A program made the translations under genes and the position numbers. DNA of 64,000 nt, taken from contig NC_013385.1 of the NCBI RefSeq assembly GCF_000024605.1, positions 124,001 through 188,000 on the forward strand, written 5' to 3'. The notes under the pieces were generated by a model. The model was not told the origin of the DNA, ran no database searches, and saw only the letters and a program-made list of their open reading frames with translations. Within the stretch, counting starts at the first letter, position 1, and the number at the start of each line of letters is the position of its first letter. The stretch is from Ammonifex degensii KC4. GTDB taxonomy: Bacteria; Bacillota; Desulfotomaculia; Desulfotomaculales; Ammonificaceae. Positions 4,112-26,666 of this stretch are shown here, one piece after another.

Positions 4112-6298
4112 GTGGTGGTAGAAGGAAAAAGTTTTTGGCGAGGTCTGCTTAAAGAGCCGAGGATCAAAAGAGTAGGGGCGGCTCTATTTTTATTCCTCTG
4201 CCTGACCCTGCTCGCCGCCTTTCAGTTCTTCCCGGAAGGGACGGATCTAGAGGTGGGGCAGGTAGCTCCCCGCACCATCAAAGCGCCGCGGGCTGCCGTT
4301 TTCGAGGATAAGGTGCGGACAGAAGAACTGCGCCGGGAAGCGCAGGCTAGGGTGCCCAAGGTTTACGACATCGATCCCAAAGTGCTGGAGTCCATCCGCA
4401 AGGACATGCGGGACAGCATCGAAGCTGTCATAGCGGCAGCCAAATCTCCGGCACAGGGGGAGGCGGCCAGGGTGGCACTCGTCAAATCCTCCCTCCCCTT
4501 CCCTATTTCCGACGATCTGGCGCAGGCACTTTTGAACCTGCCGGAAAGCCGTTTGCGCCAGTTGGGTAGTTATTTAGACACCTTGGTAACCCAAGTGATG
4601 GTGAAAGGGGTGAAGCAGGAGGATCTTCAGGCCACCAAGGAGCAGTTGCGGGAAAGGATAAAGCTTCTGGCCCTTGATCCGGTGGAAGAGCGCTTCGCAC
4701 AGCTGATCATCCAGCATACCTTGCGCCCCAACTCTTTCTACAACCCGGTGCAAACCGAGATCTTGCAGCAGCAGGCGCGGGAAGCGGTGCCGCCGGTAGT
4801 GGTGACCATAAGGCCAGGGGAGAAGATAATCGGCGAGGGGGAAGTAGTAACCCCTGAGCATATTGCCAAGCTCAAGGCTGTAGGGCTTTACCACTCCCGT
4901 CCCTCCTTTGGCACGGTGGTAGGTATAGCCCTCATGATGGCCCTCCTTACCTTTGCCTTCTTCTACTACATCTACCAGCAGCACCCGAACGTCTACCGGG
5001 ACGCCAACCAGCTCTACCTGATAAGCTTTGTCGTGGTAGGGGTACTTTTGCTGGCCAAGTTCATCCTGGCAGTGGATGTACAGCAGTGGCCTAGCTTGGG
5101 GTCCAAGCTCGGCTATGCCGTGCCGGTGGCGGTGGTGGGCATGCTGCTGGCCGTCTTAATCAACTCCCGCTTGGCAGTGGTGGCGGTGGCCTTAACCGCC
5201 TTGCTCGTAGGCATGCTGGCGGATAACCAGCTGCGCTTTGCCTTGGCCGGCATGCTTACCGGCCTAGCGGGTGTATACGGCGTGGCCAAGCTTCACCGGC
5301 GGCGGGATCTGGTCCGGGCCGGCATGCTTACGGGCCTTACTGGCGTGGGAGTTACCTGGGGGATCGAGCTTGCTTCCCAGACACCTCTGGCCATACTGGG
5401 TCCGGCTGGGCTGGCACTTGGTATCTTGAATGGGTTGTTAAGCACCATCCTTACCAACGGGGCCCTGCCGGTTCTGGAGCACCTTGGCGGCATAACCTCG
5501 CCGGTGCGGTTGCTGGAGCTGACCTCGCCGAGCGAACCTTTGCTTAAGAGACTGGCGTGGGAGGCTCCCGGCACCTATCACCACAGCGTCATGGTGGCCA
5601 ATCTGGGGGAGGCGGCGGCCGAGGCCATAGGGGCCGATATCTTGACCGTGCGCGCTGGAGCTTATTATCATGACATAGGAAAACTCCGCCGCCCCTCCTT
5701 CTTTGCCGAGAACCTGCTGGGAAGCGAGAACCCCCACGATCGTTTGGCTCCCAGCCTTTCCACTCTGATCATTACCTCCCACGTGAAGGACGGGGTGGAG
5801 ATAGCGCGGGAGTACAAACTGCCGGAAAAGATAATAGAGATCATCGAGCAGCACCACGGTACAAGCCTGGTCAGTTGCTTTTACCAGAAGGCCCTGCAGG
5901 CCGAGCAGAAGGGGATACAGGAGGCCGATTTCCGCTATCCCGGCCCTAAGCCGCAGACGCGCGAAGCGGCCATCGTCATGCTGGCGGACTCGGTAGAAGC
6001 GGCGGTGCGCTCCATGAACCATCCTCCTCCCGGACAGATAGAGGGGCTGGTGCGGCGCATAATTAAAGAAAAGCTCCACGACGGGCAGCTGGACGAGTGT
6101 GCCCTGACCTTCAGGGACTTAGAACTTATCGCACACGCTTTTGTCCACGTGCTAACAGGGCTTTTCCACACGCGGGTCGAATACCCCCGAGTCGAGAACG
6201 GAAAAGGGGCAATGAGCTATGACGGTGATAGTCCAGAATCTGCAAGAGAAGGTGAAGGTAGAGAGCGAGTGGCTGTCAGCCGTCAGGCGGGCGGCTGA
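4112..6298 (+). CDS. pgpH: PgpH-type membrane HD-domain phosphodiesterase (7TMR-HD)
   Basis: The 728-residue protein has an N-terminal membrane anchor (about residues 22-42), an extracellular domain, several membrane spans between about residues 270 and 450, and a cytoplasmic HD domain. The HD residues include YHHSVM (His490/491) and YYHDIGK (His520, Asp521). Family members hydrolyse cyclic di-AMP, which in Firmicutes controls osmotic and cell-wall balance. The start is GTG 4112 after GGAG. The last 27 or so codons overlap ybeY in a different frame, and the tail after VEYPRVENGKG looks non-homologous, so the reading frame probably ran past its usual end. Confidence 0.93.
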   Translation: MVVEGKSFWRGLLKEPRIKRVGAALFLFLCLTLLAAFQFFPEGTDLEVGQVAPRTIKAPRAAVFEDKVRTEELRREAQARVPKVYDIDPKVLESIRKDMRDSIEAVIAAAKSPAQGEAARVALVKSSLPFPISDDLAQALLNLPESRLRQLGSYLDTLVTQVMVKGVKQEDLQATKEQLRERIKLLALDPVEERFAQLIIQHTLRPNSFYNPVQTEILQQQAREAVPPVVVTIRPGEKIIGEGEVVTPEHIAKLKAVGLYHSRPSFGTVVGIALMMALLTFAFFYYIYQQHPNVYRDANQLYLISFVVVGVLLLAKFILAVDVQQWPSLGSKLGYAVPVAVVGMLLAVLINSRLAVVAVALTALLVGMLADNQLRFALAGMLTGLAGVYGVAKLHRRRDLVRAGMLTGLTGVGVTWGIELASQTPLAILGPAGLALGILNGLLSTILTNGALPVLEHLGGITSPVRLLELTSPSEPLLKRLAWEAPGTYHHSVMVANLGEAAAEAIGADILTVRAGAYYHDIGKLRRPSFFAENLLGSENPHDRLAPSLSTLIITSHVKDGVEIAREYKLPEKIIEIIEQHHGTSLVSCFYQKALQAEQKGIQEADFRYPGPKPQTREAAIVMLADSVEAAVRSMNHPPPGQIEGLVRRIIKEKLHDGQLDECALTFRDLELIAHAFVHVLTGLFHTRVEYPRVENGKGAMSYDGDSPESAREGEGRERVAVSRQAGG

Positions 6299-18642: not shown

Positions 18643-19329
18643 TTGATTGTTCACTGGAAAATCGTTCGCTACCTCCAAGGAGAGCAGCGCGAAGTAATGG
18701 ACGAGGTAGCCGAAGAAAGGGCCTTCAAAATTGTGCTCGACGGTCAGTTTCTCACCACCCTTTACTGCCTTCCAGCAGAGCTGGAATATCTGGTGTTAGG
18801 GCATCTCTGGCATTTAGGTAAGATCCGTCACCCGGCGGAGGTGGCGCAGATCGAGGTCCTGGCAGAGGAGATTAGAGTCTCCTGCCGCCCCGGCAGGACG
18901 TCCTACCCTCCTGTTTCTTCTTCCCCTTTGCGGGCGGATCCGGGGGAACTTTTCTCCCTGGTAAAAGCTCTGGACGAGGAGCCTCTCTTTTCCCGGACCG
19001 GTGGAGTGCATGTAGGCATCTGGGGCCGGGGAGGGGAGGTAATCTTCCGCACCGCCGACACCGGGCGGTACAACGTCCTCGATAAGCTAACCGGTTTTGC
19101 CCTGACCCGAGGGATTTCTCCTTCCGAGCTCGTTTTGGGCTTCAGCGGGCGCATGACGCGGGGAATTATGGAGAAGGTGGCTCGGCTTGGGGTGAAGCTC
19201 ATAGTCTCGCCGGCAGCTCCCACTTCTGCGGGGCTTGAGTTGGCTTTGAAGAAAGGTATTACTGTGGTCGGCTTTGTCCGCCAGGGCCGCTTAAATGTTT
19301 ACACCTATCCGGAAAGACTTTTTCTCTGA
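18643..19329 (+). CDS. fdhD: FdhD-like formate dehydrogenase accessory protein lacking the CxxC motif
   Basis: The 228-residue protein matches FdhD in its second half: SRTGGVHVGIW, DTGRYNVLDKLTGFAL, LGFSGRMTRGIMEKVARLGVKLIVS and a VVGFVRQGRLNVYTYPERL end. FdhD passes sulfur to the bis-MGD cofactor of formate dehydrogenases. The family CGVCG motif is absent: the place before the RTGG segment reads RTSYPPVSSS, and the only nearby Cys is in VSCRPGR. The protein is also shorter than the usual 260-280. The TTG start at 18643 follows AAAGGAGG. An IS200/IS605-type element starts about five bases after its stop. Confidence 0.85.
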   Translation: MIVHWKIVRYLQGEQREVMDEVAEERAFKIVLDGQFLTTLYCLPAELEYLVLGHLWHLGKIRHPAEVAQIEVLAEEIRVSCRPGRTSYPPVSSSPLRADPGELFSLVKALDEEPLFSRTGGVHVGIWGRGGEVIFRTADTGRYNVLDKLTGFALTRGISPSELVLGFSGRMTRGIMEKVARLGVKLIVSPAAPTSAGLELALKKGITVVGFVRQGRLNVYTYPERLFL

Positions 19330-19349
19330 GGCTGTGAACTTCCCCTGAC

Positions 19350-19368
19350 TGAAGGGGTTGTTGAAAAA
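19350..19368. repeat. TGAA target duplication and left inverted repeat of the IS1182-type element
   Basis: TGAA at 19350-19353 is followed by GGGGTTGTTGAAAAA. The preceding bases CCCCTGAC (19342-19349) are the left arm of the split hairpin. Confidence 0.9.
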
Positions 19369-21187
19369 CAAATTGCGACAAACAAGAAAGTTGATTAAAC
19401 CATGAGGCATTTATGTTGTAGTTACGGTCGTGTTGTGGTACATTAGTGTTGTAGGTTGTTTTGAAGGGATGAGAGTAGATGATGGGTAAAAAAGTACGTC
19501 AGTGTTCTATGTTCTTTGGTTGCTGGCACAGCCTTATCCCAGAAAACCACTTTCTGCGCCAGGTAGAAAGGGTAGTCGACTTCTCCTTCATCCGGAAAAA
19601 GGTGGCTCATCTGTATTCCCACACCGGCCGGCCTTCCATTGACCCCGAAGTGCTTATCCGGATACTGCTCATAGGCTATTTTTACGGCATTACTTCCGAA
19701 CGCGAACTAATGGAGCAGATTCGGGTCAACCTGGCTTTCCGGGAATTCATAGGGTACGAGCTGGACGAGGAGATTCCCGACCATTCCACCCTGTCGAAGA
19801 ACCGCCACGGCCGTTTCAAGGGTACTTCTGTCTTTCAGGAGATTTTTGATGAGATTGTTCGGCAGTGCATGGCAGCGGGTCTAGTAGCCGGCAAGCACCT
19901 TTCTTTTGACGGCACTACTATTCAGGCCAACGCTTCCTACGATTCCATGGTACCCAGGCGGGTAGTTGAGATGTCCCCTGCGGAGTACATCCAAAAAGTA
20001 GAACAGGAAAATCCTGTGACACCAGAGGTGGAAGAAGAGCAGCAAATGTCCATGGAAGAGGGAACTACACTAGATGATTCTGGAACACCTCCCGGCTCGA
20101 ATGGAAACTTCTGTTCTGTTGCGTCCGGGCCAGAGGATGCCTTGGTAACAGACGACACTGCGGATACCCCGCAAGAGGGCTTGAGTTTTGCTTCCAAAGC
20201 CGGTGGCGGCAAAAAGATGTCGGGCAAGTCAAGAAGGTCAGAGAAGAAGACCAACGCTACTCACATAAGCCGCACTGACCCGGACGCCAGGATATTTGCC
20301 CGTCCCGGGCAACCGAAAAAGCTGGGCTACATCGAGTGTGTTACGGTAGATAGCCTGTACAACATTATCACTGGGGTTGAAGTAATTCCCGGCAACGCTG
20401 GTGAGGCCCGAGTACTGGTTCCCATGATAACTTCCCAGATGTTCAAGTTTGGCTTTCGGGTGGACTCCGTATCGGGTGACAAGGCCCACGGTGAATCACG
20501 CGTCTACAAAGAACTTCTGGCGCTGGGCATCAAACCTTTCATTCCCCATCAAAACTTTCATGAAACCAACCGAAACATCTGGCCCCAGGAAAAGTTCCGG
20601 TATGATGCCAAGGAAGACTGCTATATTTGCCCTAACGGCAAAGTTCTCCGGTATCAAGGGTGTATAGACCGCGGGATTATGAAGGTGTACCGGACAAGGC
20701 CCAGAGACTGTAAGGATTGCCCGTATAAATCTCAGTGTACCACTTCTGAGAAGGTAGGTCGGACTATCAAACGGCATGTAGACGCACGGGTGTTTGAATA
20801 CGTTGATCGGCTACTCAAGCGCCCTGAAGCCCGGGAGGCTGCAATCTGGCGGCGTACTGGACCCGAGACTGTATTTGGGGAAGCTAAGGAATACCACGGG
20901 CTTAGGAGGGCTAAGTTTAGAGGTCTTGAACATGTTAAAGAACAGTGCCTGCTAACTGCTACGGCCCAGAACATAAAGCGTATGGTCAAGGCATTAACAA
21001 GGAGAAAACCTCCCAAAGTAAGGGAGGCTGCTATGCCTGCTAGAACCCTAAAAGCCAACCAGGTTCAAACCAGGTCGAGTTTTTCTTTGATTCAGTCAAA
21101 CTTAACAGCTTTGTGCTCCGGCCCGATTGTTTTTCAGCGGGCCATAGCTTAGTCCAAGGTAGAAAGAAGGCCTTTTTCAACAGCCCC
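19354..21187 (+). mobile_element. IS1182-type insertion sequence, 1,834 bp
   Basis: It is bounded by 15-base imperfect inverted repeats (GGGGTTGTTGAAAAA at 19354-19368 and TTTTTCAACAGCCCC at 21173-21187; 14 of 15 match). It carries one long transposase gene. The four bases TGAA occur directly outside both ends (19350-19353 and 21188-21191), a target duplication. The insertion point is the loop of the right-end hairpin of the surrounding tnpB element. Confidence 0.92.
19479..21152 (+). CDS. IS1182-family DDE transposase
   Basis: The 557-residue protein begins with the family pattern FFGCWHSLIPENHFLRQVERVVDF, then HTGRPSIDPEVLIRILLIGYFYGI and LSKNRHGRF. Likely catalytic residues are Asp144 (SFDGTT), Asp334 (SGDKAHG) and Glu468 (VFGEAKEYHG). 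A Cys cluster (CYICPNG and CKDCPYKSQC) lies between, as in other IS1182 transposases. The middle, residues 170-260, is a low-complexity acidic then basic insert. The frame is intact, so it may be active. ATG 19479 and ATG 19482 are both possible starts. Confidence 0.95.
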   Translation: MMGKKVRQCSMFFGCWHSLIPENHFLRQVERVVDFSFIRKKVAHLYSHTGRPSIDPEVLIRILLIGYFYGITSERELMEQIRVNLAFREFIGYELDEEIPDHSTLSKNRHGRFKGTSVFQEIFDEIVRQCMAAGLVAGKHLSFDGTTIQANASYDSMVPRRVVEMSPAEYIQKVEQENPVTPEVEEEQQMSMEEGTTLDDSGTPPGSNGNFCSVASGPEDALVTDDTADTPQEGLSFASKAGGGKKMSGKSRRSEKKTNATHISRTDPDARIFARPGQPKKLGYIECVTVDSLYNIITGVEVIPGNAGEARVLVPMITSQMFKFGFRVDSVSGDKAHGESRVYKELLALGIKPFIPHQNFHETNRNIWPQEKFRYDAKEDCYICPNGKVLRYQGCIDRGIMKVYRTRPRDCKDCPYKSQCTTSEKVGRTIKRHVDARVFEYVDRLLKRPEAREAAIWRRTGPETVFGEAKEYHGLRRAKFRGLEHVKEQCLLTATAQNIKRMVKALTRRKPPKVREAAMPARTLKANQVQTRSSFSLIQSNLTALCSGPIVFQRAIA

Positions 21188-21191
21188 TGAA
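21173..21191. repeat. Right inverted repeat of the IS1182-type element and TGAA target duplication
   Basis: TTTTTCAACAGCCCC (21173-21187) is followed by TGAA and then GTCAGGGG (21192-21199), the right arm of the split hairpin. Confidence 0.9.
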
Positions 21192-21515
21192 GTCAGGGGC
21201 TTCAGCCAGGTTAACGCCGGGTCGTCCTTGAAGGCTACCGGCCTTCGTGCCTGCCCCGGGTACGGGGAGGGAGCAGTCCCCGAGCCGTAGGCCCAACTGC
21301 CGGCCTTCCCTAGTTTACCGGGTGCAAGTAGCCAGCGGGTCCGTGCCTTGTGCCGTGCTGCCTTGTAGGCCGCAGGAGAACTTCCCCCTGCCCCTGACAC
21401 GGCTGCCCCTCCGTCGCCGGAGAGGTCTTAAAACGCGTACACGCACAAAAACCGGTCAAAGATGTTTTCAGTAGCCAGGAAGTCCGCACTCACGTCCTTG
21501 ACTTTGCCGCACGCC
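21192..21515 (-). ncRNA. Candidate guide-RNA (reRNA) region at the tnpB 3' end
   Basis: About 240 bases between the tnpB stop and the right-end hairpin have no gene and are GC-rich with many possible stems on the minus strand. They run through CGGCGTTAACCTGGCTGAAG into the hairpin arm. In TnpB elements the guide RNA is made from the tnpB 3' end and right end, so this is where it would lie. The IS1182-type insertion would cut it off from its guide segment. Position and family knowledge only; there is no direct evidence of transcription. Confidence 0.35.
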
Positions 21516-22833
21516 GTCAAGCTTCCAGCTTCTTCCCGTTTTCCCTCCCAGGAGTGTACCGCTCTATGGAGAGCTCCCCGCATAAGGGACACCTCCGGGA
21601 GGTGTTTGTGGGGCTGACCCTCACCACCAGGATCCCGGCGTGCAGGGCCTTGTACTCCGTGTACCTGACGATGCGGCCCCTCAGCCAGTACCCCAGCTTC
21701 TGGTTGAGATAGTGCGACCTTGTGCCCCTCTCGGGCCGGAAATTTTTGAGGTTCTCGAAGACGATGATTTTTGCGCCGTAAAGGCACGCAAAATCGACTA
21801 TCTGCCGCGACACCCGGTGCACCAGGTAATCATTGAAGTTGGTTATCTTCTCCCAGGGGTCGCGGGCAAAGGCCTCCCCTTCGGGTATGACGCGGGTCTG
21901 CCTCTGGAGGTTGACCACCTTTTCGAGATACCTCTTCCTAAGGCGGTTGTCCTCAGCACCCGGCAAGAACCGGGCGGCCAGGACCCTACCTTCGGTATCC
22001 CTCACCGTCATGACGGCGTGGTGCTCAAGCCCCAGGTCGACCACGCACACCCTGAGGGAAGGGTCTGTCTTAACGAGGTGCCGCACGGTGGTCTTCTTGA
22101 GGACGCTTGCCCGAAAGGATGAGCCGCTCTGAAGCTGATCCGTCAGGAGGAAGAAGTAGCTTTTCAGGACCTGGTCCTGGACGGGGGACCGTACCTGGAA
22201 GAGGGGGAAGTGGAGCTCCCATCCATGATTTTTCTTGACCAGGCGCGGCGAACCTGCTTCGTACCCTTCAGGGATTTCCGGCGGGTCAAGCAGCACCACC
22301 TTCCGGTAGCCGTAAGACCGGCCCGTGAAGACCTTAAGCAAAATGTGCCTCTCGGGCCTGAGCCGCCTCAACTCCGTCGCGTAGTACGTGGGCCAGGTGT
22401 GCACCTCATCGGGAAACACGGGCGGCCTCTCGGTGAAAGGCACGCGCTTCTTACCCTGCTCCATCCTCTTCCGGTTGCGCTCCTCGTGCTTCTGCCTGCG
22501 CCCCTGCCACCTCTCGTAGTTGCTTTTCCAGGCGAGGGCTATGCCCCGCGCTTCGGCCATGGCCGCACGCCTGAAGCCGGAAGGAAGGTTGGAGAACTCT
22601 GCGTCGAAGGGATAGAGCGGGTTGGGGTTGTCTCTGGTGCGGTGGGTGAGTAGTTCCGCCTGCCTGAACCAGTCGCCCCTCTCCAGCAGTTCCTGGTGGT
22701 CGTGGAAAAGCTGCAGGCAAAAGTCGACTACCTGCCGGTAGAGGCACACGGTAGCCTGGAGCATGCGGGAGGTTTTCTCTCCTACCAGGAGCCTCACGCG
22801 CAGGATCTTGCACGGGCCATGAAGGTGCGGCAT
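21428..22833 (-). pseudogene. tnpB: IS200/IS605-type TnpB with a frameshift at the zinc ribbon
   Basis: From 22833 the frame encodes a TnpB with RuvC-I Asp266 (VVDLG), RuvC-II Glu360 (VFENLKNF) and the first zinc pair CPLCG. It stops at about 21517 after GKKLEA. The next frame carries the missing end: LTACGKVKD followed by SADFLATENIF, which holds the RuvC-III Asp, and stops at 21428. One extra base near the AAGCTT at about 21519 would join them. Even then the second zinc pair has only one Cys, so decay is likely. It is not closely similar to the IS607 TnpB at the window start. As read, the product lacks the third catalytic residue. Confidence 0.85.
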
Positions 22834-22924
22834 ACCTCATTCGCCTGCCTTCTGACTCTTAGTGCACATCTTCTGCACATATGCTGCCACAAACAAAAGA
22901 GTAAAGCAAGACCGCGCCTAACTC

Positions 22925-22938
22925 CTGACTGAAGTCAG
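22925..22938. repeat. Left-end hairpin of the tnpB element
   Basis: CTGAC, loop TGAA, GTCAG forms a perfect five-base-pair stem with the same loop and inner stem as the split right-end hairpin. It lies about 90 bases upstream of the tnpB start. Confidence 0.8.
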
Positions 22939-23249
22939 AAGAATGCGGCGCGGAAATTCTCTTCAATCGTTTTTGGGTGAGTTACGGTTAAAATTGGCTC
23001 TCCAAATCACTTCTGCTATTTGTTCGGGCTCGACCGTTTCGAGTTCGCCGCTGTCTAATTTAAAGCATGAGCAAAGCGGAATCTTGGCGCTGTACGGCCC
23101 GGAAGCTGTTTGCCTTGGCCGAGGTGCATTTAGAGGTGCGCTCGGGAGAGGGGCAAAAAAGAAAGCCGCAGGAGCGGCTTACATTGCAGGAGTTGATGTC
23201 ATGGAGGTAGATCGCCTCATGGCTTTCATTTTTTGTTTATCAGGGCATA
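22939..23249. other. Gene-poor stretch between the tnpB element and the formate dehydrogenase operon
   Basis: No convincing gene. On the minus strand an open frame without a clear start ends at 22963 with LDSGELETVEPEQIAEVIW..., which looks protein-like and could be the 3' remnant of a lost gene, perhaps cut by the tnpB element. A plus-strand frame from 22943 to 23290 has no ribosome-binding site and crosses a terminator, so I do not call it. The minus-strand terminator at 23150-23180 is the only clear signal. Confidence 0.4.
23150..23180 (-). terminator. Intrinsic terminator of the formate dehydrogenase operon
   Basis: Read on the minus strand, AAGCCGC, loop TCCT, GCGGCTT is followed by TCTTTTTT. 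It lies 70 bases after the last small frame of the operon. Confidence 0.85.
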
Positions 23250-23390
23250 TTAGAGTTCAGCATTTTTCTGGGCCAGATGCTTGCCGATAAAGAAAGCATC
23301 ATTAAGTGCCCAGATGCCAAGTCCACCGAGGTTGGAAAGCCAAAGCAACCGCATTGCTACTGGGGGCTTCCTCCGACGCTCTAACTCCAT
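23250..23390 (-). CDS. 46-residue TM2-like membrane fragment
   Basis: From ATG 23390 the frame reads MELERRRKPPVAMRLLWLSN then GGLGIWALNDAFFIGKHLAQ and stops. The GGLGIWAL.D segment is like the second half of TM2-domain proteins, but the first membrane helix is missing and an in-frame stop lies just upstream. It is either a small single-span protein or the remnant of a TM2 gene. It follows the carbonic-anhydrase-like gene by 21 bases and precedes the operon terminator. Confidence 0.4.
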   Translation of the reverse strand: MELERRRKPPVAMRLLWLSNLGGLGIWALNDAFFIGKHLAQKNAEL

Positions 23391-23411
23391 GTTGACCGCG
23401 GTTTTCCGTCA

Positions 23412-23861
23412 TCACCGTCTTTCCTCAATGGGCACTTCTTCAAACACGACCTCTCCATTCTCCACGAAAGCGAAGAAAGCGCGAACTTGTATGCCTCTCT
23501 GTCGCAGCCGATTAGCGGCAGCCTGCAAATCCTCCCGCTGTCGCTTTCGTAATTCGTCGGGGGAAGCATCGGGATAGCGGTGTTTATAATAGCCGCAGTC
23601 GTCGTGGGCGATGATAGCAATGCGGTGGATGCGGTGTGCTCTGAGCAGCAGGTTGAGCCGTTCGGTTAAGGCGACTTCCTCTTGAGCGACGAATGCTGGA
23701 CCGCCTGCTACTGCCACCAAATCGCAACGGTCCATATCCACCCCCCGTCGCAGGAACTCAAGGGTGGCAGCGACAAAGCGTTCGTCGCTGCAAAAGATGG
23801 CTAAGTTGCCGCTGAACTCGTCCTGCCATAGCGTCCAGCTGCGAAACCGTTCTGGCTGCAT
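23412..23861 (-). CDS. Beta-carbonic-anhydrase-like protein
   Basis: The 149-residue protein has the zinc-site pattern of small beta-carbonic anhydrases: a Cys-Ser-Asp-Glu-Arg motif (FCSDERF), then AVAGGPAF, and AHDDCGYYK with His and Cys spaced as ligands. In classical enzymes the first motif is CxDSR; here it is CSDER, so the Asp-Arg spacing differs by one and activity is not assured. It lies 109 bases downstream of fdhA in the same direction, which suggests supply or removal of CO2/bicarbonate for formate dehydrogenase. That link is inferred. Confidence 0.75.
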   Translation of the reverse strand: MQPERFRSWTLWQDEFSGNLAIFCSDERFVAATLEFLRRGVDMDRCDLVAVAGGPAFVAQEEVALTERLNLLLRAHRIHRIAIIAHDDCGYYKHRYPDASPDELRKRQREDLQAAANRLRQRGIQVRAFFAFVENGEVVFEEVPIEERR

Positions 23862-23969
23862 CGTCGCACCTCCATCGTCAATACCTTAAAAAATGTCGTC
23901 GATTTCCGGTAGCGCAAAAACCCTGGGGGTCGACGATACTTTTGCTCAGGGAAAATTTGGAAAGATTGT

Positions 23970-26666
23970 TCAGCGCACGGCTTTTTCTATCCGCACGGCT
24001 ACTCCTTTAAAGGCAGGTGTCTTGGCGCGCGGGTCGCAGCGGTGTCCCACCAGAAGGTTTATGGGGTTGTCGGCATCGTGGAAGGTGGCGAAGACTACCC
24101 CGCGCGGCAGGTTGGAGTTGGGGGTGGTATCTATTTTCATAGAGCCGTGGCGCGAGGAAATGAGGACTCGGTCGCGAGGCTTGATTCCCAGCTCCGCCAT
24201 GTCTTCTGGGTTCATTTCTAGAAGGGTCTCCTGATAAAAGCCCAGCGGGGTACGCCGGGTCATAGTGCCTGAATGGTAATGAGTGAGGTAGCGGCCAGTG
24301 ATCAGCAGGAAAGGATAGTCCTTATCCGGCTGCTCGTCGGGCGGGGCGAAATGTACCGGGTGGAAGCGTCCTTTACCCCGGGTGAAGTTTTCCTGGTGAA
24401 GAATAGGGGTGCCGGGGTGTTCGGGGTGAGGGCAGGGCCAGAATATTCCTTCGGGCTCGGCTTCTAAGCGTTCGTAACTCACCCCGCCGTAGATGGGGGT
24501 AAGCTGCGCTATTTCCTCCATGATGGCGGCCGGGGAAGAGTAATTCCAGGGATGTCCCATCTCCCGGGCCAAGAGGGTGACTATCTCCCAGTCTGGTTTG
24601 GCCTCCCCTACCGGGTTTATGGCGCGCCGTACTCGCTGAATGCGGCGCTCGGTATTGGTGAAGGTGCCGTCTTTTTCGGCAAAACTGGCTGCCGGTAGAA
24701 CCACGTGGGCAAAGCGCGCGGTTTCGGTGAGAAATATGTCTTGCACCACCAAGAACTCCAGATTTTCCAACGCCTTTTTCACCAGGCTGGTATCGGCTTT
24801 GGTCACCATGGGGTTCTCGCCCACGATATAGAGGGCTTTTATCCTGCCTTCGGCGGCCGCTTCAAACATTTCGGTGGCGGTGAGCCCCGGATGATCCGGG
24901 ATTTCTACTCCCCAGGCCGCGGCAAACTTAGCCCTCACTGACGGGTCGGTCACCGCCTGATACCCGGGGAGGTAGTCGGGTAGGGCTCCCATGTCGCAGG
25001 CTCCCTGCACGTTGTTTTGTCCTCTCAGCGGTAAGACACCACTTCCTCTCCTCCCCACGTGGCCGCAAAGCAGAGCCAGGTTGGCGATGGCATAGACGTT
25101 GTTCGTACCGCAGGTATGTTGGGTTATACCCATGGTGTAGATGATAACAGCGTTTTTAGCCCGGGCGTAGTGGCGTGCCACCTCAATGATGAGTTCTTCC
25201 GGTACACCGGTTATGGCCGCGGCCAAGGAGGGTGGGTACTGCATCGCCGCTTCCCGGAAGGCGGCAAAGTTTTCCGTACGGTAGATGACAAACTCCTGAT
25301 TCCACAGGTTCTCTTGAAGACATACGTGAGCTATAGCGTTGAGTAAAGCAATGTCAGTGCCGGGGCGCAGCTGCAGGTGGTAGTGGGCGCGTGAGGCTAT
25401 CTCCGTACGCCGGGGATCGATCACGGCCAGCACCGCCCCGCGCCGGAGAGCTTTCTGGATCTGGATGGCCGCCACCGGGTGAGTCTCAGTGGTGTTACTG
25501 CCGATTACCAGGATGAAGTCGGCTTCGGCTATCTCGGCAAGCTGGTTGGTAGCTGCGCCGCTACCAAAGGCTTCCCTCAGAGCTACCAGGGTGGGGGCGT
25601 GGCAGAGGCGGGCGCAGTGGTCGATGTTGTTGGTACCTAAAACTGCCCGGGCGAACTTGTTAAGCAAATAGGCTTCTTCGTTGGTTATGCGGGCAGAGGC
25701 AAGTACTCCTATGGCGTCCGGCCCGTATTTTTCTTTTATCTCGGTGAGGCGCCGGGCTACCAGCTTCAGGCTGGTGGGCCAGGTGACCTTGGCGAAGAGG
25801 AAGGGGTCGCGTATGAGAGGCATTTTTAGCCGATCCCGGTGATGGATAAAGCCGAAGCCGAAGCGTCCTTTGATGCACAGCCAGCGGCCGTTGACCGGCG
25901 CATCGGGGCAAGATTGCACCCCTATCACCCGCTCGTCTTTAACGACCAGGTAGAAGGAGCAGCCAGTGCCGCAGTAGGGGCACACGGTCTTTACCTTCTT
26001 GACTTCCCAGTGCCGTCCCTGTCCCCACATGGGTTTGGGGAATAAGGCTCCGACCGGGCAGACGGCCACGCAGTTACCACAGAACACGCAGCCGGCCTTT
26101 TCCAAGGGGAGCTCGAAGGGAGGGGTGATTTTGGTGCGTACCCCACGGTAGGCGAAGTCTATAACGGCTTTCCCCATAATCTCGTTGCAGACGCGCACGC
26201 AAAGGCCGCAGAGGATGCACTTATTCATGTCCCGTACGATGAAGGGGTTGCTGTCTTCTATCGGGTAATTCCGCTTTTCTCCTTCAAAGCGAGTCCGGCG
26301 CACCCCGTAGCGGTAGGCCAGATCTTGCAGGACGCAGGAACCGGTGCGCTCGCAGGTAAGGCAGTCTTCGGGATGGTTGGCCAGAAGGAGCTCTATCAGG
26401 GTGTAGCGGGCGTGGCGCACCGCTGGGCTTTCAGTTTCCACCACCATACCGTGGCGAACTGGGGTGATGCAAGCCGCCGGCAGCTCTTTCCAGCCCCGCA
26501 CCTCCACTATGCACAGGCGGCAGCCTCCCCATGGGCTGAGCTCTGGGTCGTGGCAAAGGGTAGGAATGTAAATGCCGGCCTGGCGGGCCGCCTCCAGGAT
26601 AGTGGTTCCTTCGGGAACGGTGACTTCTTTTCCGTTTATGACCAGTGTTACCATTTTCTCTTTCAA
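23970..26666 (-). CDS. fdhA: Formate dehydrogenase catalytic subunit, Cys-type, with NuoG-like N-terminus
   Basis: The first 240 residues hold a 2Fe-2S domain (TLCHDPELSPWGGCRLC), a His-Cys cluster (HPEDCLTCERTGSC) and two 4Fe-4S motifs (CILCGLCVRVC, CVFCGNCVAVC). The molybdopterin domain follows, with its own cluster CPYCGTGC. The active-site position reads DHCARLCHAPT, with Cys (about residue 355) where selenium enzymes have Sec; there is no in-frame TGA. It reversibly oxidises formate to CO2. I prefer TTG 26666, ten bases after AGGGGG; ATG 26654 is the alternative. About 898 residues. With the two upstream genes it would form an NAD(P)-linked cytoplasmic complex. Confidence 0.92.
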   Translation of the reverse strand: MKEKMVTLVINGKEVTVPEGTTILEAARQAGIYIPTLCHDPELSPWGGCRLCIVEVRGWKELPAACITPVRHGMVVETESPAVRHARYTLIELLLANHPEDCLTCERTGSCVLQDLAYRYGVRRTRFEGEKRNYPIEDSNPFIVRDMNKCILCGLCVRVCNEIMGKAVIDFAYRGVRTKITPPFELPLEKAGCVFCGNCVAVCPVGALFPKPMWGQGRHWEVKKVKTVCPYCGTGCSFYLVVKDERVIGVQSCPDAPVNGRWLCIKGRFGFGFIHHRDRLKMPLIRDPFLFAKVTWPTSLKLVARRLTEIKEKYGPDAIGVLASARITNEEAYLLNKFARAVLGTNNIDHCARLCHAPTLVALREAFGSGAATNQLAEIAEADFILVIGSNTTETHPVAAIQIQKALRRGAVLAVIDPRRTEIASRAHYHLQLRPGTDIALLNAIAHVCLQENLWNQEFVIYRTENFAAFREAAMQYPPSLAAAITGVPEELIIEVARHYARAKNAVIIYTMGITQHTCGTNNVYAIANLALLCGHVGRRGSGVLPLRGQNNVQGACDMGALPDYLPGYQAVTDPSVRAKFAAAWGVEIPDHPGLTATEMFEAAAEGRIKALYIVGENPMVTKADTSLVKKALENLEFLVVQDIFLTETARFAHVVLPAASFAEKDGTFTNTERRIQRVRRAINPVGEAKPDWEIVTLLAREMGHPWNYSSPAAIMEEIAQLTPIYGGVSYERLEAEPEGIFWPCPHPEHPGTPILHQENFTRGKGRFHPVHFAPPDEQPDKDYPFLLITGRYLTHYHSGTMTRRTPLGFYQETLLEMNPEDMAELGIKPRDRVLISSRHGSMKIDTTPNSNLPRGVVFATFHDADNPINLLVGHRCDPRAKTPAFKGVAVRIEKAVR

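Follow-up and report, generated by a model that had tools for sequence, protein, structure and literature searches.

Insertion of an IS1182-family element at the centre of a tnpB-element end hairpin in Ammonifex degensii, and the symmetric targets of its transposase branch

An intact IS1182-family insertion sequence in Ammonifex degensii KC4 was found to interrupt the hairpin at the right end of a tnpB element, and a copy of the hairpin loop stands on each side of the insert. Taken together, the evidence makes it likely that the IS1182 element entered a tnpB element that was already resident, and that its transposase picks targets with dyad symmetry and duplicates their centre. The event illustrates well how one IS1182 branch targets palindromes, but it is no evidence that tnpB ends are singled out. 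For that branch, the analysis leads from a single anecdote to a target rule that can be tested (arms at offsets 5-8, 4-5 bp stagger). The features lie in a stretch of 64,000 nucleotides, hereafter the window, and are listed in Table 1.

Table 1 Positions of the insertion sequence, the split hairpin and the surrounding tnpB element in the window
Feature	Position	Strand	Remark
IS1182-family insertion sequence, intact, 1834 bp	19354-21187	+	One of 3 full genome copies
IS1182 transposase ORF, 557 aa, DUF772 and DDE_Tnp_1_6	19479-21152	+	
Left terminal inverted repeat GGGGTTGTTGAAAAA	19354-19368	+	
Right terminal inverted repeat GGGGCTGTTGAAAAA	21173-21187	-	
TGAA, left target-duplication copy (hairpin loop)	19350-19353		
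TGAA, right target-duplication copy	21188-21191		
CCCCTGAC, one arm of the split tnpB right-end hairpin	19342-19349		Joined flanks, folding
GTCAGGGG, second arm of the split tnpB right-end hairpin	21192-21199		Joined flanks, folding
Presumed outer boundary of the tnpB element, GTGAACTT (+ strand)	19334-19341	-	Inferred boundary
tnpB ORF, 438 aa, C-terminus lost through a 1-nt deletion at about 21519-21527	21517-22833	-	
tnpB left-end structure, outer stem CCGCGCC/GGCGCGG enclosing TGACTGAAGTCA (22926-22937)	22912-22953		Folding

The transposase scored 401 bits against the IS1182 model NF033551 (cut-off 270), and the presence of GGGGYTGTTGAAAAA at each IS end together with a single 557-aa ORF also agrees with the IS1182 family. 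The element begins with GGGGTTGTTGAAAAA and ends with TTTTTCAACAGCCCC, and its placement between two TGAA copies in the preliminary description was confirmed to the base. When the flanks were joined without the IS, they gave CCCCTGAC-TGAA-GTCAGGGG, that is, an 8-bp stem with a 4-nt loop, which folded as DNA at -8.2 kcal/mol (z = -3.3) and was matched in stability by 0 of 200 shuffles. Sequence and folding thus bore out the claim that the flanks rebuild the right-end hairpin of the tnpB element with a TGAA loop, and the matching core proposed for the left end, TGACTGAAGTCA, was found where it had been placed. Both arms were kept and TGAA alone was duplicated, which supports the proposed insertion at the centre of the palindrome with duplication of the loop. 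Perfect hairpins of 8-bp stem and 4-nt loop occurred at only 3 of about 64,000 window positions, so a chance landing in such a loop is unlikely.

The TnpB protein passed the cut-offs of PF07282 (33.8 bits, cut-off 26.3) and TIGR01766 (43.9, cut-off 32), and its 77 bits against NF040570 were below the cut-off of 100. Inspection of the element's ORF list by eye showed no tnpA-like (Y1 transposase) ORF, and the element may be tnpB-only or decayed. Its end hairpins are common to relatives: the left end recurs in genome G097 and the right end in G017, G112 and Ammonifex thiophilus, the right-end version of G017 being CCTCTGACTTCAGTCAGGGGAGGTTCAA and that of G112 near-identical. The left end reads ACGCCTAACCCCTGACTGAAGTCAGAAGAATGCGGCGT in G097 against GCGCCTAACTCCTGACTGAAGTCAGAAGAATGCGGCGC in the window, and the outer stem of G097 is CACGCC/GGCGTG, with bases changed and pairing kept. 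In A. thiophilus, as in further tnpB relatives, GTTCAC/GTTCAA follows the hairpin, and the presumed outer end GTGAACTT may be compared with it.

The TnpB frame ends after ...GKKLEA through a 1-nt deletion relative to A. thiophilus, and intact homologs run on. The lost frame (window 21517-21530, minus strand) would continue ...ACGKVKDVSADFLATENIFDRF. The deletion removes the second cysteine pair and KDVSADF, which aligns by motif with RuvC-III of intact homologs, so that the complete C-terminal RuvC-III/zinc segment of active TnpB is absent here. In other TnpB elements, guide-RNA scaffolds end at the last hairpin. Here the IS interrupts this last hairpin, at a distance of about 330 bp downstream from the tnpB stop, so by analogy loss of the native guide RNA through the insertion is plausible. 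Silencing of the nuclease by the IS, as the preliminary description had suggested, is also plausible, and it is confounded by the independent frameshift in tnpB. In another part of the window, positions 301-1264 match an ORF directly upstream of the A. thiophilus tnpB (contig L205:2645-3608, 79%), and this ORF may be a further TnpB-like fragment.

The A. degensii genome is 2.16 Mb and its nearest relative in our searches was A. thiophilus. This sister species has an orthologous tnpB element with 88.9% identity over 1681 bp, and its end hairpin is uninterrupted (GCCCCTGACTTCAGTCAGGAAAGGTTCAC, CCTGACTTCAGTCAGG; L205 about 5270-5300). The empty-site element with a hairpin that had been named as confirmation of the history therefore exists, though its stem is only 6 bp. 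The A. thiophilus tnpB itself (L205 3637-5044) is split into two frames, so this element has decayed despite its intact end hairpin. At the fdhD locus of A. thiophilus, window positions 19315-23971, which reach from fdhD to the next syntenic block, are absent and about 14 bp stand instead, which means that the tnpB elements of the two species are at different places. The absent segment includes about 1 kb past the tnpB left end, and since it exceeds the tnpB element, the exact tnpB boundaries remain inferred.

Elsewhere on this A. thiophilus contig (L205:6955-6982), TGAAGTCAGGGG directly follows a solo IS right end, TTTTTCAACAGCCCC; unrelated sequence comes next, and the other side has been lost. 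The sequence suggests that a hairpin of this type was hit a second time, independently. Another A. thiophilus copy has the left flank CCTC-GGCA-TCTA. The A. thiophilus C33 copy is without a right end and the copy of Thermoanaerobacterales 50_218 (L029) is without a left end, so no full target can be read from either.

A search of the A. degensii genome found exactly three copies of the IS. Besides the copy in the hairpin, one sits at CCCC-GGGC-TTAA-AGGA-GGGG and one at CCCC-GGCT-TTTAA-CCCT-GGGG, so the frame CCCC-N4-[4-5 bp duplication]-N4-GGGG is common to all three (C4-N12-G4 words number 5 in the 64-kb window). These two sites pair only at offsets 5-8 from the duplication, with 4-bp arms around a 12-13-nt centre, and they are neither real hairpins nor tnpB ends. 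The only uninterrupted core TGACTGAAGTCA in the genome is the one at the host tnpB element's left end. The three sites are thus alike by symmetry and arms, not as transposon ends. So the expectation that most copies would sit in TGAA loops of such hairpins failed for two of three, which are at unrelated, non-hairpin sites, but the dyad with C4/G4 arms at the same distance was kept. The wider suggestion that end hairpins of one transposon family are, as such, the target of another was not supported, because the other two copies lie elsewhere and the copies of relatives lie in other palindromes.

IS1182 flanks were read from genome contigs, from the host's order and from plasmids, and the pairing of flanks was tested on 19 insertions of the window element's branch with a 4-5 bp duplication by permuting the partners. 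In elements whose ends resemble GGGG/CAGG/GAG/GAT...TGTTGAAAAA, the duplications are mostly of 4-5 bp at dyad centres. At offsets 5-8, 56 of 76 positions were paired against 30.6 expected (p ≤ 5 × 10−5, 19 sites). These offsets were first noticed in the three A. degensii copies and tested afterwards, and the result survived removal of these copies (44/64 against 23.7, p ≤ 5 × 10−5). Pairing at offsets 1-4 was 37/76 against 25.3 (p = 0.004, 19 sites), and at offsets 9 and beyond a clear excess was not found at the 19 sites. Full 4/4 pairing at offsets 5-8 was seen in four of the first five short-duplication sites against 0.5% of window positions (binomial probability about 4 × 10−9). C stood at -8 in 14 and G at +8 in 16 of the 19 sites, and with such a base preference a symmetric consensus of bases may account for part of the signal.

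True hairpins with a duplicated loop were found at L243 (GGCGTCACAACC-GTCC-GGTTGTGACACC), L247 (GTCCGAAATAC-GTAC-ATATTTCGGAC), L255 (CAGCTTTG-CGGA-CGAAGCTG) and L258, and a further dyad site in the branch is GTCT-N4-TTGA-N4-AGAC. The alphaproteobacterial sites L255, L257 and L258 are mutually similar and may come from one repeat family, hence they are not fully independent. Flanks were symmetric without a duplication at L012 (15-bp perfect arms), L237 and L246, and symmetry was weak or absent at L250, L253, L256 and L238, so the dyad rule is a strong preference and not absolute. Over all 19 sites, hairpin stability was modestly above that of chimeric controls (p = 0.014), and thermodynamic stability was rejected as the sole criterion, being weak beside the pairing at offsets 5-8. 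Some further observations were made on these flanks: IS1182 ends at L012, L058 and L157 adjoin palindrome arms of the GGGGTCAGGTCTT/GGGGTCAGACTTG type, which are REP-like in appearance; the copies at L015 and L019 lie between two unlike hairpins, which would fit recombination between two copies; and the draft genome G026 carries the end GAGGCTGTTGAAAAA at nearly 30 places, a high-copy element with similar ends.

Other members of the family treat palindromes differently. In Bacilli, in two genomes of the host's order and on several proteobacterial plasmids, IS1182 elements were found with whole-hairpin duplications, typically of 16-30 bp and often of terminator-like hairpins; another IS1182 set has CTAG duplications. 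In the transposase tree, the short-duplication set including the window element (95/93), the whole-hairpin duplicators (100/99) and the CTAG set (100/100) formed separate clades; IS1272 was not among its rows, and long branches were flagged, so depth and order are unsure. A uniform behaviour of all IS1182 elements with palindromic targets was rejected, as the three duplication types separate in the tree. At the level of transposase sequences, the tree shows that duplication type follows phylogeny. This clade pattern offers a natural series for studying the different registers in which palindromes are read by a single transposase fold. Tentatively, the family might have radiated by shifting strand transfer relative to the palindrome, to the axis (duplication of 4-5 bp, as in the window element's branch), to the stem foot (duplication of the whole hairpin) or with removal of the hairpin (IS1272). 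If so, insertions would recur in the structured ends and the repeats that other mobile elements carry, and one transposon family would prune the guide-RNA ends of another.

How the IS came to sit in this hairpin could be explained in other ways. That it landed there by accident with little target preference is hardly credible: some sites of relatives are without clear symmetry, but all three A. degensii copies have C4-N12/13-G4 and the permutation result holds with and without them. Specific targeting of the end hairpins of IS200/IS605-type (tnpB) elements is improbable. One of the three A. degensii copies does lie in such a hairpin, and the solo IS end of A. thiophilus abuts TGAAGTCAGGGG, but the other two A. 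degensii copies are at non-tnpB sites without a tnpB-like core, the third A. thiophilus copy has the flank CCTC-GGCA-TCTA, and the copies of relatives are in other palindromes. As an exclusive rule, strict tnpB-hairpin targeting was thus largely refuted by the sites of the other copies.

A more serious alternative, which we regard as possible and still the weaker reading, is that the structure recognised is an extruded hairpin or cruciform, with the transposase joining the IS ends at its loop, as in pathway c of the IS1272 model. Cruciform recognition fits the perfect hairpins with duplicated loops in the window and at L243, L247, L255 and L258, and it fits the sister clade, whose whole-hairpin duplications vary over 16-30 bp and would be hard to obtain from a fixed duplex footprint; moreover, the IS1272 model predicts a loop-only duplication (PMC5678879). 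However, at the two other A. degensii sites a hairpin could only have a 4-bp stem and a 12-13-nt loop, which gives no usefully stable fold, and the pairing excess is centred on offsets 5-8 and not beside the loop. The fixed offset and the non-hairpin sites are better accounted for if a transposase dimer reads duplex DNA than by a cruciform.

In the reading that we prefer, a tnpB (IS200/IS605-type) element would already have been resident downstream of fdhD before the IS arrived. The transposase would pick a two-fold symmetric target in which a 4-5 bp centre is flanked on both sides, at about 5-8 bp, by short inverted arms, and CCCCTGAC-TGAA-GTCAGGGG would have been taken for meeting this rule, with CCCC/GGGG at offsets 5-8 and full inner pairing. 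The hairpin would thus have been chosen because the dyad rule was satisfied, not because it was part of a transposon. A transposase dimer would presumably read the symmetry from duplex DNA and not from an extruded hairpin, and a 4-5 bp staggered cut at the symmetry axis would lead to duplication of only the centre. The insertion would also have severed the native guide-RNA 3' end from the tnpB transcript, and the tnpB case would then show concretely how one mobile element can split another's guide-RNA end.

Targeting of palindromes is not new in this family. IS1272 and TnSha1 of staphylococci, both of the IS1182 family, target inverted repeats and terminator hairpins without sequence homology, and Siguier et al. 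are cited in the same papers for palindrome targeting by some IS1182 members (PMC5678879, PMC4923244), a behaviour that the window element shares. It resembles IS1272 and TnSha1 in family and in having inverted-repeat targets. However, IS1272 is reported to delete or replace its stem-loop target with no duplication (PMC5678879, PMC4923244), and loop-only duplication was drawn as a possible pathway in its model (PMC5678879), whereas the window element keeps the arms and duplicates the 4-nt centre. The ISBspe1-like IS1182 elements of Bacilli and plasmids share the family, hairpin targets and related ends (CAGGCTGTCGAGAAA), but they belong to a clade apart and their duplications span the whole stem-loop (about 16-30 bp), whereas the window element duplicates TGAA only. 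ISPse1 of Paracoccus, also of the IS1182 family, is like the window element in its reported 4-bp duplication (PMC3281130), and that paper is silent on palindromes. ISRm22 is reported to insert at the palindromy axis of REP sequences with a 6-bp direct repeat (PMC1525189), and ISRm22, ISPpu9/10 and IS1397 are like the window element in inserting inside repeated palindromes, but they belong to other IS families and have REP targets, whereas the target here is a tnpB end. Against this background, palindrome targeting by IS1182 is known, and the fixed-offset dyad rule together with the clade pattern looks like a refinement of it.
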